64,000 bases of DNA, from assembly GCA_035314825.1 (NCBI GenBank), contig DATFYX010000001.1, forward strand, positions 124,001 to 188,000. The letters run 5' to 3'. Both the position numbers and the translations under genes were made by a program. This document shows, piece after piece, positions 35,279 through 40,898 of the stretch. Each line of letters starts with the position of its first letter. Positions within the stretch are counted from its first letter, which is position 1. Source of the stretch: Candidatus Eremiobacteraceae bacterium (GTDB taxonomy: Bacteria; Vulcanimicrobiota; Vulcanimicrobiia; Eremiobacterales; Eremiobacteraceae). The notes beneath the pieces are model-generated. The model ran no database searches. It was not told the origin of the DNA and saw nothing but the letters and a program-made list of their open reading frames with translations.

Positions 35279-36916
35279 TCAGATCGACCATTCCCACGTG
35301 TTCCAGAACGGCGTGACGGCGTGCGCCGGCTTGTAGTCGTGGAAGTCCGTGTTGATGACGTCCATGCGCCGTACGTACCAGATGATGATGAACGGCAATT
35401 CGCGCGTCATCTCCTCCTGCACGACCGCGTAGTCGGCTTTGCGCCGCGCCTGATCGTACGTCGTGAGCGCATCGGCCTCCGCGGCGTCGAGGCGCTTACT
35501 GCAGAAATGGTAGATGTTCCAGCCCGCGGGCGGCGCCATCGTGCAGGTCACCAATATCGACTCATCAGGATCGATTCCGTTGGCCCACTCCTCGTATGCG
35601 ACGTCGTACTTCCCGCTCTGCTCGACGCCGCCGTTGGCGAGCGTCGCGTAGAGCTCATTTGACGGCCAATCCTTGATCTGGATGTCGACGCCGAGCGCGC
35701 GCCATTGCTGCTGGATCACGACCTGCGCTCCGCTCACCGTCGACGAACCGGTGAACCCGGTCATCTGCAGCTGCAGCGGTTTTCCCTCTTTGTAGCGCAT
35801 GCCGTCGGCGCCACGCTTCCAGCCCGCGTCATCGAGCAGCGCGGCGGCGCGTGTGGGATCGTACGGATACTTCATGGCGTTGTCGTCGTGCGCCCAGAAA
35901 AAACTCGGCTGATCGGTGTCGCCCAGCGCGTCGATGCCGTGGCTGACCTTGTCGATGAGCTCCGTCCGGTCGGTGGCGTAGGCGAGGGCTTGGCGGACGC
36001 GCACGTCGTCCAGCGGCGGATGCGACGCGTTGATGCCGATGTCCGCGAACTGCGTGAACGGATAGATGATGACGCGCGTGCCGGGAATGCTGCGAAGGCT
36101 CGGCGCCAGCCCTTCGGTCGCGCGATAGTAGAAATCGATGCCGTGCGATTCCAGCAGCGTGAGGATGGTGTTGTCGTTGCCCACGATCTGCCACTCGATG
36201 CGTTTGAGCTTTGGCGGCCCGCGCCAGTACAGCGGGTTGGCTTCGAACGTGATGTGCGAACCGTGCACGAACTCCACCACGCGAAACGGCCCGGTGCCCA
36301 CCGGCTGCCGGTTGAACGCCACGCGGGTCAAGTCGTGATACTTCGCGAGCAGGTGCTTGGGCAGCACCGCGACCGGGTTGTTGCTCATCGTGAAGAACAT
36401 GTTGACGAACGGCGAGAAGCGGCGCTTGAGCCGCACGGCGATCGTGTAGCCGTCAAGTTTGTCGATGCGCGAGATATCGTCAAAACCAAGCCGGCTGATG
36501 ACCGGGTTGTCCGGGTTAAGCTGCTGGGTCCAAGTGAAGATCACGTCGTCGGCGCCAAACGGCGCGCCGTCTTGCCACTTCACGCCGCGCCGCAGATGAT
36601 ACGTGATCGTCAGCCCGTCCTTCGAGACGCCGCCGTTGGCGAGCGTGGGGACCTCGGCCGCGAGTTCGGGCACCAGCTCGTTGCGATCGCTCCAGTTGAA
36701 CAGGTAGCCGCCCCAGAACATCGACAGATCTTTGTCGATGACTTCGGTGCCGAGCATCGGATTGAGGTTGTCGGGCTCTTGCCGGCTGGCGATGCGCAGG
36801 GTGCCCGGAATCGTCCAGGCGTTCCCGGCGCCTGCGCGCGGTGCCACCGCCGTCTGGATCTTCGTGCAGCCTGCGAACGCCAAGACGATGACCAGCGCGG
36901 TCAAAGATCGCGCCAC
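35279..36916 (-). CDS. Peptide/oligopeptide-binding lipoprotein (SBP_bac_5), orphan
   Basis: 545 residues from GTG 36916, which has AGGA upstream and gives a short lipoprotein signal ending LAFAGC. The ABC-transporter family-5 binding fold is seen from LRIASRQEPDNLNPMLG, SKDGLTITYHLRRGVKWQDGAPFGADDVIFTW, QPVGTGPFRVVEF, DDVRVRQALAYATDRTELID and YDPTRAAALLDDAGW. These proteins deliver peptides, or sometimes nickel or other solutes, to Opp/Dpp permeases. No Opp/Dpp permease or ATPase gene is nearby. It follows the creatininase gene by 7 bases on the same strand. Confidence 0.88.
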   Translation of the reverse strand: MARSLTALVIVLAFAGCTKIQTAVAPRAGAGNAWTIPGTLRIASRQEPDNLNPMLGTEVIDKDLSMFWGGYLFNWSDRNELVPELAAEVPTLANGGVSKDGLTITYHLRRGVKWQDGAPFGADDVIFTWTQQLNPDNPVISRLGFDDISRIDKLDGYTIAVRLKRRFSPFVNMFFTMSNNPVAVLPKHLLAKYHDLTRVAFNRQPVGTGPFRVVEFVHGSHITFEANPLYWRGPPKLKRIEWQIVGNDNTILTLLESHGIDFYYRATEGLAPSLRSIPGTRVIIYPFTQFADIGINASHPPLDDVRVRQALAYATDRTELIDKVSHGIDALGDTDQPSFFWAHDDNAMKYPYDPTRAAALLDDAGWKRGADGMRYKEGKPLQLQMTGFTGSSTVSGAQVVIQQQWRALGVDIQIKDWPSNELYATLANGGVEQSGKYDVAYEEWANGIDPDESILVTCTMAPPAGWNIYHFCSKRLDAAEADALTTYDQARRKADYAVVQEEMTRELPFIIIWYVRRMDVINTDFHDYKPAHAVTPFWNTWEWSI

Positions 36917-36923
36917 TACATTC

Positions 36924-37730
36924 CTAATGATGGTCCACCCGCTTGGCATCCGGGCGCGCGCGCATCTCGTCGACGAGCTCGACGACACCACGTGCAGCCG
37001 CGGCCAGCAAACGCTCTCCTTTTTGTGCGCTGGCCACGGTCGGGTCGCCCATCACGCCGCTCTCAGAAAGCGCGCTCCAGTGCTCCATCATCGCGAGCGG
37101 TCCGTCGCCCCCCACGAGATCGGTCCAGTAATTCACGGTCGGGCGGTGCGAGAGCTCGCGCACCGCTTTGGACATGTCGACCAGGTCGGGCCGCAGCGCG
37201 AGATAGATCGAGGTCTCGAACTCGCAGGCGTGGTTCATGCCGCCGATCTTGTCCGATTCGCGCAGGTCTTCGGCGACCTCGTGCACGCCGGGCGCGTTCC
37301 AGTAGTTGACCGCTGCTGCCAGCGCTCCAGTCTCTACCACCGTCAGGCGCGCGATGATGTCGACGAACGGCGTGTTGCTCCCGTGCCCGTTGACGATGAG
37401 GATGCGCGTGAAGCCGTGATGAGCCAGACTGCGGCACACGTCCACACCGTAGGCGATGAAGGTCTGCCAGCCGATCGTGATGGGTCCCGGGAAGTCCATG
37501 TGATGCGGTGTGTAGCCGTGATTGATGGCCGGCACGAGCACCGCGCGGTCGGCGCACGCGGCGACCGCGCGCTCGCAGACGGCGTTGCACAGCAGCAGAT
37601 CGGTGTCGATGGGAAGATGGCGCCCGTGGTCCTCAAGGACGGCGACGGGCACGACCGCGACCTTGCGGGCGGCGGCCGCCTCCTTGACCTGAGGCCACGT
37701 CAAAGAGCCGTAGTGATATTCAATCGCCAT
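36924..37730 (-). CDS. Creatininase-family amidohydrolase
   Basis: 268 residues from ATG 37730; an in-frame ATG at 37820 would run through the divergent promoter. Creatininase metal-site motifs: LEDHGRHLPIDTD (Glu, His, Asp), NGHGSN and ESDKIGGMNHACEFETSIYL. The family includes creatinine amidohydrolase, FAPy deformylase-like enzymes and the MftE-type peptidase that trims the mycofactocin precursor. The substrate here is unknown. Context may be informative: it is paired with a peptide-binding lipoprotein and diverges from a promoter that drives a 40-residue peptide gene. Confidence 0.85.
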   Translation of the reverse strand: MAIEYHYGSLTWPQVKEAAAARKVAVVPVAVLEDHGRHLPIDTDLLLCNAVCERAVAACADRAVLVPAINHGYTPHHMDFPGPITIGWQTFIAYGVDVCRSLAHHGFTRILIVNGHGSNTPFVDIIARLTVVETGALAAAVNYWNAPGVHEVAEDLRESDKIGGMNHACEFETSIYLALRPDLVDMSKAVRELSHRPTVNYWTDLVGGDGPLAMMEHWSALSESGVMGDPTVASAQKGERLLAAAARGVVELVDEMRARPDAKRVDHH

Positions 37731-37788: not shown

Positions 37789-37817
37789 TTGACAAGCATT
37801 ATTCGGCGACCTATACT
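37789..37817 (+). promoter_or_regulatory. Consensus promoter of the peptide-GntR-ABC operon
   Basis: TTGACA (37789-37794), 17 bases, TATACT (37812-37817): one of the two near-consensus promoters in the window. Predicted transcription start is about 37824, at the edge of the ACTAGT operator. Confidence 0.88.
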
Positions 37818-37823
37818 CATATC

Positions 37824-37842
37824 GTACTAGTTCACTAGTATA
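37824..37842 (+). promoter_or_regulatory. Candidate GntR (YtrA-type) operator
   Basis: GTACTAGT-TC-ACTAGTATA: two ACTAGT hexamers two bases apart, forming a dyad at the predicted start of transcription. Its size and place fit autorepression by the GntR regulator encoded 155 bases downstream. Confidence 0.65.
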
Positions 37843-37868
37843 ACAGTAAATAAGAAAGGACACCCACC

Positions 37869-37991
37869 ATGCTGTCGACCCAAACCAACGCCAACGGCGT
37901 CCAGACCATCGACGATATCAGCCACCCGTTCGTTCGCCTGCCCAACGCCAACACCAACAACGTGTTTCCAGGTTGGGGGCCGAGGATCTAA
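37869..37991 (+). CDS. Short peptide gene (40 residues) heading the GntR-ABC operon
   Basis: ATG 37869 follows a Shine-Dalgarno AAAGGA at 8 bases spacing, and the frame ends at TAA 37989-37991, five bases before the GntR ATG. The product begins MLSTQTNANG, has an Asp-Asp-Ile stretch and SHPFVRLPNANTNN in the middle, and ends VFPGWGPRI. It is polar and Asn-rich, with no signal peptide or membrane helix and no Cys. I recognise no family. It is the first gene after a consensus promoter. It could be a precursor of a modified peptide, a small signal, or a regulatory leader peptide. The aromatic, Gly/Pro-rich tail after a polar leader-like half resembles RiPP precursors in general form only. No radical SAM or cyclase gene is adjacent. 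Confidence 0.6.
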   Translation: MLSTQTNANGVQTIDDISHPFVRLPNANTNNVFPGWGPRI

Positions 37992-37996
37992 GTCCG

Positions 37997-38416
37997 ATGC
38001 CAGCAATCTTCACGGTCGACCCGCGCAGCGGAGTGCCGATCTACCTCCAGATCGTGGAGCAGGTCAAGCGCTCCGTTGCGCTCGGTGTGCTCGCACCGCA
38101 CGAGCAGCTGCCGACCGTCAAACAGCTCGCAGCTGATCTCATCGTCAATCCGAACACCGTCGCCCGCGCCTATCGAGAGCTCGAGCGCGACGGCGTGATC
38201 GAAACCATGGCCGGCCGGGGCTCGTTTATCGCCGGCACCGGTACCGTCGCCGGCGCGAAGCGCGCCGTCGCAGACGTCGCCGACCAGGCAATCGTGCAAG
38301 CCGTCCGCGAGGGCAAATCGATGGGCCTCGCGCGCGACGAGATGAAAGTTTTGTTCGAGCGAGCGCTCGACCGCTGGTATCCAACTCATGCGTCAGAGGA
38401 GAACGCAGCATCATGA
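37997..38416 (+). CDS. GntR-family regulator, YtrA subfamily
   Basis: 139 residues from ATG 37997. The N-terminal winged helix is typical: GVPIYLQIVEQVKRSVALGVL, then LPTVKQLAADLIVNPNTVARAYRELERDGVIETMAGRGSFIAG. The short C-terminal part (about 50 residues, helical) lacks a large effector domain, as in YtrA regulators. These control ABC transporters encoded in the same operon, often those responding to cell-envelope stress. Its stop overlaps the ABC ATPase start (ATGA). The dyad at 37824-37842 is its likely site. Confidence 0.9.
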   Translation: MPAIFTVDPRSGVPIYLQIVEQVKRSVALGVLAPHEQLPTVKQLAADLIVNPNTVARAYRELERDGVIETMAGRGSFIAGTGTVAGAKRAVADVADQAIVQAVREGKSMGLARDEMKVLFERALDRWYPTHASEENAAS

Positions 38417-39339
38417 CAACCGAACATACCCCGATGATCTCCGTCCACGCGCTGAGCAAGCGCTATGGCCGGACGCTGGCCGTCGACGACGTGTCGTTTT
38501 CGATCAACCGGGGATCCATCTTCGGGTTGCTCGGCACGAACGGCGCCGGCAAGACGACGACCTTCAAGTGCGTGCTCGGCTTGGCGTTTCCGGACGCCGG
38601 CGAGGTGCGCTTCGACGGCGAGCGGCTGCGGCCCGAGCTGTTCGAGCGCATGTCGTACGTGCCCGAGACGAGCGCGTTGTACGGCTGGATGACCGGCCGC
38701 GAGCACCTCGAGATGACCAAGCGGTCCTTCCGCCGCTACGATGCGGCGCGCGCACAGATGCTGTTGGATCTGTTCGCCTTCGACGTGAAGAAGAAGGCAA
38801 AGCAGCTTTCCAAGGGCCAGCAGAGCGCGCTCGCGCTGACGATGGCATTCTCGATCCGGCCCGACATCCTGGTGCTCGACGAGCCGTCGAGCGGCTTGGA
38901 TCCCGTCCACCAGCGCCACGTGCTCGATCTGATGATCGACGCGGCGGCCGGCGGCGCGACGATCCTGTTCAGCTCGCACCAGATCGGACAGGTCGAGCGC
39001 GCCGCGGACCACGTCGCGATCATGCACAAGGGCAAAGTGCTTCTGGCGGGCGACGTCGAGGAGCTGCGCGCCGGTGAAAAGGTCGTCGAAGCGACGTTCG
39101 ACGGCGACGCCCCGGCGATCGCCGCGCTGGACGGCGATCCGCACGTGCGGCGCGTCATGCGCCAAGGACGCGTGTTGCGAGCATACATCCGCGACGGAGG
39201 CAACGGTGTGGCCAATCTGATCGATGCCGCAAAGCCGGCGAGCCTGCGCGTGCTCAATCAGAATCTCGAAGACATCTTCCTTGCGGCCGTCGGCGACGAT
39301 TCCGGCGCCGCGATGGCCACGCTGAACCGGGAGAACTAG
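38413..39339 (+). CDS. ABC transporter ATP-binding protein (YtrB-like)
   Basis: 308 residues. Walker A GTNGAGKTTTFK, Q-loop near YVPETSALYGWM, signature LSKGQQSALAL, Walker B ILVLDEPSSGLDPVH and the switch SSHQIGQVERAADHV are all present. The signature reads LSKGQ, as common in the YtrB/ABC-2 branch. A C-terminal domain of about 85 residues (EKVVEATFDGDAPAIAAL onward) follows. It is the energy subunit for the two permeases downstream. Confidence 0.93.
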   Translation: MTTEHTPMISVHALSKRYGRTLAVDDVSFSINRGSIFGLLGTNGAGKTTTFKCVLGLAFPDAGEVRFDGERLRPELFERMSYVPETSALYGWMTGREHLEMTKRSFRRYDAARAQMLLDLFAFDVKKKAKQLSKGQQSALALTMAFSIRPDILVLDEPSSGLDPVHQRHVLDLMIDAAAGGATILFSSHQIGQVERAADHVAIMHKGKVLLAGDVEELRAGEKVVEATFDGDAPAIAALDGDPHVRRVMRQGRVLRAYIRDGGNGVANLIDAAKPASLRVLNQNLEDIFLAAVGDDSGAAMATLNREN

Positions 39340-39340
39340 G

Positions 39341-40117
39341 ATGTACTATAAAGAGATCGTGACCGTCAGCCGGGCCCTGATGTGGCTAGTGATCTCACTG
39401 GCCATGATCCTCGGCGCCGTCATCCTCGTCAGCGCCCTCTCGCCGCACGGTCACGTGAGCGTCCAGGCCGGCGATACGCCATCCTCGGGCGGTCCCACCA
39501 GCTTCGTAGCGCTGCTCGGAACGGCAGCGCTGCTCGCCGGCGGTATCATGGCGACGGTTCTCGGCGTGCCGCTCGCAAAAGAGAATGAAGGCCACCTCGA
39601 GCTCGCGTGGACCAAACCGTACTCCCGTACCCAGTACGCCACCGCGATCGCGCTCGTGGACTCGGCGGCCCTGATCATCTCAACATTGCTGGGCTTTGTC
39701 ACCCTTGTGGCCATTCTCGACGTCGTGCATTCGCCCATCACGTGGGGCTTCAATACCGCGGTGTCCGTCAACATCGTGCGCTTCCTGCTGTTCCCGCTGG
39801 CCTGGTACGGTCTTTTGAATGCGTTGAGCGCGAGCGCCCGCGGCGGCGCGCGCGTACAGGGTCTCGTCTGGCTGATCGCCATCGTCCTTGTGGTCTTGTA
39901 CGCCTTACCGCTGCCCGCCATCTGGCACGGCATCATGGTGGCGCTCAACGTCGTGAACCCGCTTATATACGTCCAGTACCACGAGGCGGAGTTCTCGCTG
40001 ATGACTGGTGCCGGCTCGAACGGGTTATCGGGGCTCACCAGCGGCATCGCGCTCGCGGTGATCGCGATCGGCGGTTGGGCGCTCGCCGCTGCGCAATGGC
40101 GCCGGCTGCAGGCATAG
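39341..40117 (+). CDS. ABC-2-type membrane permease, subunit 1
   Basis: 258 residues with six predicted membrane helices. The motif ENEGHLELAWTKPYSRTQYA (about 82-101) is shared with the next gene (ENDGHLPLTWTKPISR), so the two permeases are paralogues and probably form a heterodimer with the ATPase. The substrate is unknown. An ATG one base after the ATPase stop (ATPase ends 39339) keeps it in tight coupling. Confidence 0.85.
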   Translation: MYYKEIVTVSRALMWLVISLAMILGAVILVSALSPHGHVSVQAGDTPSSGGPTSFVALLGTAALLAGGIMATVLGVPLAKENEGHLELAWTKPYSRTQYATAIALVDSAALIISTLLGFVTLVAILDVVHSPITWGFNTAVSVNIVRFLLFPLAWYGLLNALSASARGGARVQGLVWLIAIVLVVLYALPLPAIWHGIMVALNVVNPLIYVQYHEAEFSLMTGAGSNGLSGLTSGIALAVIAIGGWALAAAQWRRLQA

Positions 40118-40127
40118 GAGCGACGAC

Positions 40128-40898
40128 ATGTTCTACGTCGAGCTATTGCGCGTCCGAAACGGACTGATCGTCGCGGTCGCGGGGCTGATCGCCCTCGTGC
40201 TGGTGGGCTGGATCGGATTTGCCGCGGCGTGTCCTGAGTGCCGCCGGCTCAACGCGGCCGATCCGGCGACCGTGCTTGCCGTGATCGGTTACAGCGCCGC
40301 GATCCTCGCGGCGATCTTCGGCTCGGTCTTCGGCGCGAGTCTGTCGATCGAGAACGATGGACATCTTCCACTGACATGGACCAAACCGATCTCGCGCGGC
40401 GCGCAGGCGATCGGCATCCTGACCATCGATATCACAGCTGCACTCGCGGTCTTCGTGCTGTCGTGCGCGGCGGGGTGGTTGTTCGTGTCGCTGGTCGGCG
40501 AGCGGCCGTTACCCGTGCACGCTTCGTTTGACACCGTTGCCCTGCTCAAGCTCGCGCGGTTCGCGGCATTTCCTGTCGCGATGTTCGGCCTGACGCAGGC
40601 GCTCACCGCAGGCATCAAAGGCAGCTGGCAGGGCGCGGTCACCGGGCCGCTCTGGCCGGTCTGTCAAGGTCTGTTCGCCATCGGGCTGCTGCCGCTGACA
40701 CCGCCGCTGCACAAGCTTTGGCAGATCGTCAACATCCCGAACCCGATCGCATACTTCCCGTTTTGGGAATTCGACGAACACATCTTCCACGTGTACCCAT
40801 TCGGGTACGGCGTCGCAATCGACGCGCTCGCGCTGGCCGCGATCGCGTTCGTCGGCGTCACCATTGCGACGCTGCGCTGGCGGCGATTGGAGGCATAA
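40128..40898 (+). CDS. ABC-2-type membrane permease, subunit 2
   Basis: 256 residues, six predicted membrane helices, with the paralogous ENDGHLPLTWTKPISRGAQA motif near residue 73. Start region MFYVELLRVRNGLIVAVAG. Upstream AGGAGCGAC provides a ribosome site. It probably pairs with subunit 1. A CPEC pair (AAACPECRRL, near residue 30) in the first external loop is absent from subunit 1 and could form a disulfide. Confidence 0.85.
   Translation: MFYVELLRVRNGLIVAVAGLIALVLVGWIGFAAACPECRRLNAADPATVLAVIGYSAAILAAIFGSVFGASLSIENDGHLPLTWTKPISRGAQAIGILTIDITAALAVFVLSCAAGWLFVSLVGERPLPVHASFDTVALLKLARFAAFPVAMFGLTQALTAGIKGSWQGAVTGPLWPVCQGLFAIGLLPLTPPLHKLWQIVNIPNPIAYFPFWEFDEHIFHVYPFGYGVAIDALALAAIAFVGVTIATLRWRRLEA

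Follow-up and report, generated by a model that had tools for sequence, protein, structure and literature searches.

A conserved micropeptide family with a C-terminal GWG tail heads YtrA-type GntR–ABC operons in Candidatus Eremiobacterota

Is the 40-codon open reading frame (ORF) that precedes a GntR regulator gene in a Candidatus Eremiobacteraceae genome a real gene, and what might its product do? We analyzed a 64,000-nt stretch of this genome (the window), in which the ORF starts with an ATG at 37869 and stops at 37989–37991 on the + strand, 5 nt before the ATG of the regulator gene (37997). The earlier note on this DNA had described a consensus promoter, a dyad near the start site and a ribosome site in front of the ORF, and our coordinates agree with all of these. 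A sigma-70-type promoter, TTGACA-N17-TATACT (37789–37817, + strand), matches the consensus at 11 of 12 positions, the perfect dyad TACTAGT-TC-ACTAGTA (37825–37840, + strand) lies between the -10 box and the peptide start codon, and the Shine-Dalgarno (SD) sequence of the peptide, AAAGGA, occupies 37855–37860 on the same strand. In relatives, -35/-10 boxes of a similar kind recur upstream of the peptide, and similar dyads are present at 59 of 82 GntR loci when a loose pattern is used. The dyad is the probable operator of the GntR (YtrA-type) regulator, as predicted from the sequence. Its pattern (TACTAGTNNACTAGTA) has one exact copy in the 2.55-Mb genome, so this GntR probably controls only this operon.

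The regulator gene (37997–38416, + strand) encodes 139 aa and matches PF00392 (4.8e-15). It is followed on the same strand by an ABC transporter ATPase gene (38413–39339; PF00005) and by genes for two membrane proteins (39341–40117 and 40128–40898). A short GntR repressor (about 120–140 aa), then an ABC ATPase and membrane proteins, is the arrangement of a YtrA-type GntR–ABC operon. For the ABC-2 exporter of the earlier note, the ATPase has a profile match; neither membrane protein is matched in Pfam, and both look like ABC-2-type permeases by their position and hydrophobicity. Across 82 GntR–peptide loci, GntR was found in 81, the ABC ATPase in 78, a relative of the first membrane protein in 68 and the second membrane protein in 41. 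On the - strand, Pfam agrees with the identities previously given to the divergent creatininase-family gene (36924–37730; PF02633) and the peptide-binding lipoprotein gene (35279–36991; SBP_bac_5). Neither is a conserved part of the system: the creatininase gene is divergent at only 3 of the 82 loci, a count in which the flanks of most loci reached about 1.5 kb or beyond, and the lipoprotein gene is found at 2 of the 82, some flanks being short. The same genomes also contain a second GntR group (L018–L024, L028 and L029), with a dyad of the TTGTC..GACAA type and no peptide; here the GntR match begins close behind the dyad, and these genes are possibly leaderless.

The GntR sequence was used as a query in 14 genomes of the family and then in 149 genomes of the phylum (E below 1e-30), nearly all of which are MAGs, Vulcanimicrobium being the exception. 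GntR orthologues exist in 13 of the 14 family genomes, each with an ORF of 36–40 aa just upstream, and all 13 ORFs end with F-x-G-W-G-P-(R/K/S)-(I/L). In the phylum, the peptide lies directly upstream of 95 of 108 GntR matches (a hand tally), and a short upstream ORF ending with F-x-G-W-G-(P/V/I)-(K/R)-(L/I/F) is found in 93 of the 100 Candidatus Eremiobacterota genomes that have this GntR. The seven GntR genomes lacking the upstream peptide all belong to genus g21, where promoter and operator are retained; the remaining peptide-less GntR matches are a second copy in one genome (G119) and four diverged copies. The proposal that an undescribed, conserved peptide gene heads the operon is borne out by these counts. 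The tail that had been singled out in the window peptide, VFPGWGPRI, is exactly the conserved part; the FPGWGPRI codons lie at 37965–37988 (+ strand), and the F, G, W and G are invariant. We named the 37869–37991 gene (MLSTQTNANGVQTIDDISHPFVRLPNANTNNVFPGWGPRI) and its relatives the GWG-tail family.

The conservation is seen at the codon level, which the earlier note had suggested examining. There is variation at synonymous sites, and dN/dS values are low: they range from 0.0 to 0.62 in 17 peptide pairs, with a pooled pS of 0.31 versus a pooled pN of 0.10. A tail-specific pattern was used to collect 125 distinct tails, and these use each of the four Gly and four Pro codons, several codons for Lys/Arg and for Leu/Ile/Phe, and all three stop codons. 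This codon variety, together with the low dN/dS, indicates that selection acts on the protein. A chance ORF is ruled out by the protein-level conservation at the same position and by dN/dS, and the 40-codon ORF is confirmed as a real conserved peptide gene.

To see how strictly the tail is placed, we took a wider collection, chosen only by an F-x-G-W-G near the end and a start codon with an SD sequence. Of its 148 distinct peptides, 127 end exactly three residues past GWG. The last residue of these canonical tails is always L, I, F, V or A (127/127), and the penultimate residue is Lys or Arg in 110 and another residue in 17; in g47 tails, Thr or Ser precedes the last residue. The other 21 of the 148 have extensions of other lengths after GWG, so that their tail is not strictly C-terminal. 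Family peptides are 28–84 aa long (median 39), and their N-terminal part is variable, with 13% Arg, 12% Pro and 10% Thr. No transmembrane or signal-like stretch was seen, a mean hydropathy above 1.6 over 15 residues being reached in one of 133 peptides. We regard the members as soluble and probably disordered micropeptides, with the N-terminal half as a linker.

The window peptide has no Pfam match, and a Pfam and NCBIfam scan of 33 members gave no meaningful match over the curated cut-offs; the resemblance of one member to a FATC domain (E 0.11) is weak and was taken as chance. No match to the family was found in a plasmid collection, nor any published description in the literature searched. 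Scanning the exact tail pattern over 84,980 bacterial and archaeal species yielded 68 stretches, about 55 of which are from Candidatus Eremiobacterota or from MAGs with the same GntR context, and no coherent members outside Eremiobacterota. The pattern matches in Pseudomonas, Marinobacter, Saprospiraceae, Oscillibacter, Flintibacter, Lachnospiraceae, Chlamydiia, Chloroflexota and one Bacillota MAG lack both the context and the family features and were set aside as chance. All members in the phylum come from the same class as the window (families f1, f2 and f3), matches elsewhere being at noise level; the family is nearly class-wide, and it covers f1, most of f3 and, with one variant, f2. Two further candidates were discarded: the frame in G008 does not end in the tail, and that in G034 sits inside a same-strand flhA-like ORF. 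Several MAGs labelled Proteobacteria or ‘bacterium’ (L205, L182, L215, L221 and L225) carry the family together with the GntR operon and are therefore probably Eremiobacterota. At least two copies are present in a cultivated strain, Vulcanimicrobium alpinum WC8-2, at 231821–231916 and 370468–370557 of its sequence (G118:C1), a single contig of 3,508,363 bp, the size of the published complete genome (PMC9758169).

The family is not tied to the GntR–ABC operon. The source genome (G000) has at least four members, namely the window copy, C1:803–937 and C1:2066–2203 on the same contig, and one on C10, with a possible fifth on C72. The copies at C1:803–937 and C1:2066–2203, outside the window, flank a gene for a secreted-type metallophosphoesterase (L092, G000:C1:803–2203), and the same is seen in G007 (L094). 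Elsewhere, the peptide gene precedes that of an ECF sigma factor (L037), VOC/glyoxalase genes, with an ABATE/CGNR regulator encoded divergently (L066, L068 and L105), DUF4097 genes (L207 and L295) and a gene encoding a DUF6249 protein (L161). At one further locus (L296, G050:C3), it stands immediately in front of a gene for a BlaI/MecI-like repressor. The last neighbor, which was named from its sequence rather than by profile search, suggests a link with cell-wall antibiotic sensing. The association with regulatory operons is modular. Several copies are monocistronic, with a convergent neighbor and, past the stop codon, a strong hairpin with a T-run. Examples are G000:C1:2066–2203, whose terminator consists of the stem GCTAAGGGCG..CGCCCTTAGC and then ATTTTCTTT, G007:C92:83765–83848, and copies on G001:C3 and G010:C78. 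The decoupling runs in both directions. Genus g21 keeps GntR and its operator with no operon peptide, and a more sensitive search found one standalone member of 53 aa there. In family f2 the GntR orthologue is absent, and in three genomes the tail closes a 223-aa protein that weakly matches a PD-(D/E)XK nuclease profile (PDDEXK_1, E 0.0092). These proteins end with SIFQGWGPRLS (L303, G029), SVFQGWGPRLG (L305, G028) and SIFQGWGPHLD (L313, G030), which shows that larger proteins can also bear the tail.

At the GntR loci themselves, the translation signals follow a pattern. The SD match of the peptide is 5–6 nt long in 64 of 83 GntR-linked peptides, that of GntR is 4 nt or shorter at 71 of 83 loci, and the median gap between the two genes is 10 nt. 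In Vulcanimicrobium, gntR starts 1 nt past the peptide stop and has no SD of its own; in genus g21, which has no operon peptide, GntR has its own AAGGA ribosome site. A strong peptide SD, a weak GntR SD and a short gap suggest an added cis role at these loci, in which translation of gntR may be coupled to that of the peptide. A ribosome-mediated transcription attenuator can be set aside. The BmrB leader peptide of Bacillus subtilis is likewise a small translated ORF immediately 5' of an ABC transporter operon, and the bmrBCD operon forms alternative stem-loops, including an intrinsic terminator, within the coding region of bmrB (PMC4191407). No such structures are evident in the GWG-peptide leader: no + strand terminator was found between 37820 and 38416, the leader RNA fold is unexceptional (z -1.5) and no Rfam leader matches.

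What, then, does the peptide do? Our working view, to which we give about even chances, is that the family consists of translated micropeptides acting in trans, with the free C-terminus F-x-G-W-G-(P/V/I)-(K/R)-(L/I/F/V) as the working part, and with cis coupling in addition at the GntR locus. We infer the action in trans from the peptide-only transcription units and the two-way decoupling from GntR–ABC. The tail would work as a short linear motif, and all paralogues would share one partner. At the GntR locus, the YtrA-type GntR would repress its own operon at the TACTAGT dyad until induction; the parallel with YtrA makes envelope or antibiotic stress the probable inducer. Ribosomes would then load at the strong SD of the peptide gene, translate it and reinitiate 5 nt past its stop on gntR, whose own signal is weak, so that peptide and repressor would be co-produced. 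Our first candidate for the partner is the terminating ribosome, given that the conservation is fixed on the last eight residues and on the free carboxyl end. Two observations count against this view: copies that lead an operon remain the commonest, which fits a cis role, and 21 of the 148 peptides have extended tails.

The ribosome as a partner brings to mind apidaecin and other Type II proline-rich antimicrobial peptides, in which the last eight residues, with a penultimate Arg and a terminal Leu, trap release factors, and versions of which are active when expressed inside the cell (PMC11347161, PMC11549390). The GWG-tail peptides likewise have an Arg/Pro-rich, variable N-terminal half and conserved last eight residues; of the canonical tails, 110 of 127 have a penultimate Lys or Arg and all end on a hydrophobic residue with a free carboxylate. 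However, the F-x-G-W-G core is absent from apidaecin, and canonical GWG tails lack the penultimate Lys/Arg in 17 of 127 cases, while the stop is shifted in 21 of 148 peptides. The resemblance is a lead and not a membership. A far-reaching extension of it, which we regard as very unlikely, is that the whole class would encode its own stress-induced peptides whose FxGWGP(K/R)(L/I) end acts on the terminating ribosome as an endogenous counterpart of apidaecin, pausing it in cis with reinitiation on the downstream regulator and tuning termination elsewhere in trans.

Several alternatives share part of this evidence. A purely cis-acting leader, in which the ribosome halts on the nascent tail (FxGWGPKL-stop), either at the stop codon or immediately before it, and the pause determines how gntR–ABC is translated, for example in sensing ribosome-targeting drugs, with an inert released peptide, would fit the strong SD of this first cistron and its short gap to the weakly signalled gntR. 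It would also fit the confinement of the conserved residues to the last eight, as in termination-arrest peptides, and the fixed distance of the tail from the stop in 127 of 148 peptides. It does not account for monocistronic copies with strong terminators, which have nothing downstream to regulate, for the 21 extended tails, or for a 223-aa protein that ends in the tail. The ordinary leader fold (z -1.5), the lack of an Rfam leader and genus g21, which runs the operon with no peptide, also weigh against it, and we consider it rather unlikely as a complete account. The simple leader peptide that the earlier note had offered as an alternative is therefore incomplete, although its cis role fits the SD pattern at the GntR loci. 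Such roles need not be exclusive: peTrpL of Sinorhizobium meliloti, a leader peptide, has a second, trans-acting role at a resistance operon (PMC7298713). It serves here as a precedent with no sequence relation claimed, and it differs in being derived from a transcription attenuator.

Alternatively, the ABC exporter might secrete the peptide, whole or as its tail, and GntR might sense its level, as with the PSM peptides and PmtR. The PSM and LL-37 peptides are amphipathic, membrane-active and encoded outside the operon. They are bound directly by GntR-type regulators of ABC operons, PmtR in Staphylococcus aureus (PMC5080381) and ClnR in Clostridioides difficile (PMC6117091), and peptide, YtrA-type GntR and ABC-2 exporter likewise form one conserved operon here. 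In contrast to PSM and LL-37, the GWG-tail family also occurs without GntR–ABC. The same tail on paralogues with no ABC–GntR nearby and in genomes with no GntR orthologue, the retention of GntR–ABC without the peptide in g21 and the lack of a signal sequence make this reading improbable. A RiPP precursor trimmed by the creatininase in the manner of the mycofactocin peptidase MftE, the processing that the earlier note thought conceivable, fares worse still and seems to us highly improbable. The peptide is small and has a W in its tail, and a creatininase gene is divergent in the source genome, in G007 and in G002, the last by a partial match. However, these three loci of 82 mark the creatininase as a chance neighbor, and with this the mycofactocin-like processing fails. 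The mycofactocin radical SAM (MftC, TIGR03962) is not over the cut-off in any of the 14 family genomes, and a related radical SAM is missing from G002, G009 and G013, which carry peptides. Moreover, the leader, normally conserved in RiPPs, corresponds to the variable part of this peptide. The related gene, encoding a PqqE/MftC-like radical SAM below the mycofactocin cut-off (G000:C5:4776–5756 and relatives), is present in most, not all, family genomes.

At the operon level, the nearest analogue of the GWG-tail peptide is YtrG of B. subtilis, a small transmembrane protein of unknown function whose operon also encodes an ABC transporter and a GntR/YtrA repressor and has ytrG first in its name (PMC12772383). 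Unlike YtrG, the GWG-tail peptide lacks any hydrophobic segment and is one of a multi-copy family whose members share a C-terminal tail; it is soluble and unrelated in kind to YtrG. Our results add a robust, nearly class-wide small-protein family, absent from the Pfam and NCBIfam copies scanned, to a class of soil bacteria that has been little studied, in a phylum with very few cultured members. Its invariant C-terminal motif, tied to regulators of the antibiotic- or envelope-stress type, gives a single testable handle on the role of the peptide, and the copies in Vulcanimicrobium alpinum WC8-2 open this question to testing in a living strain.
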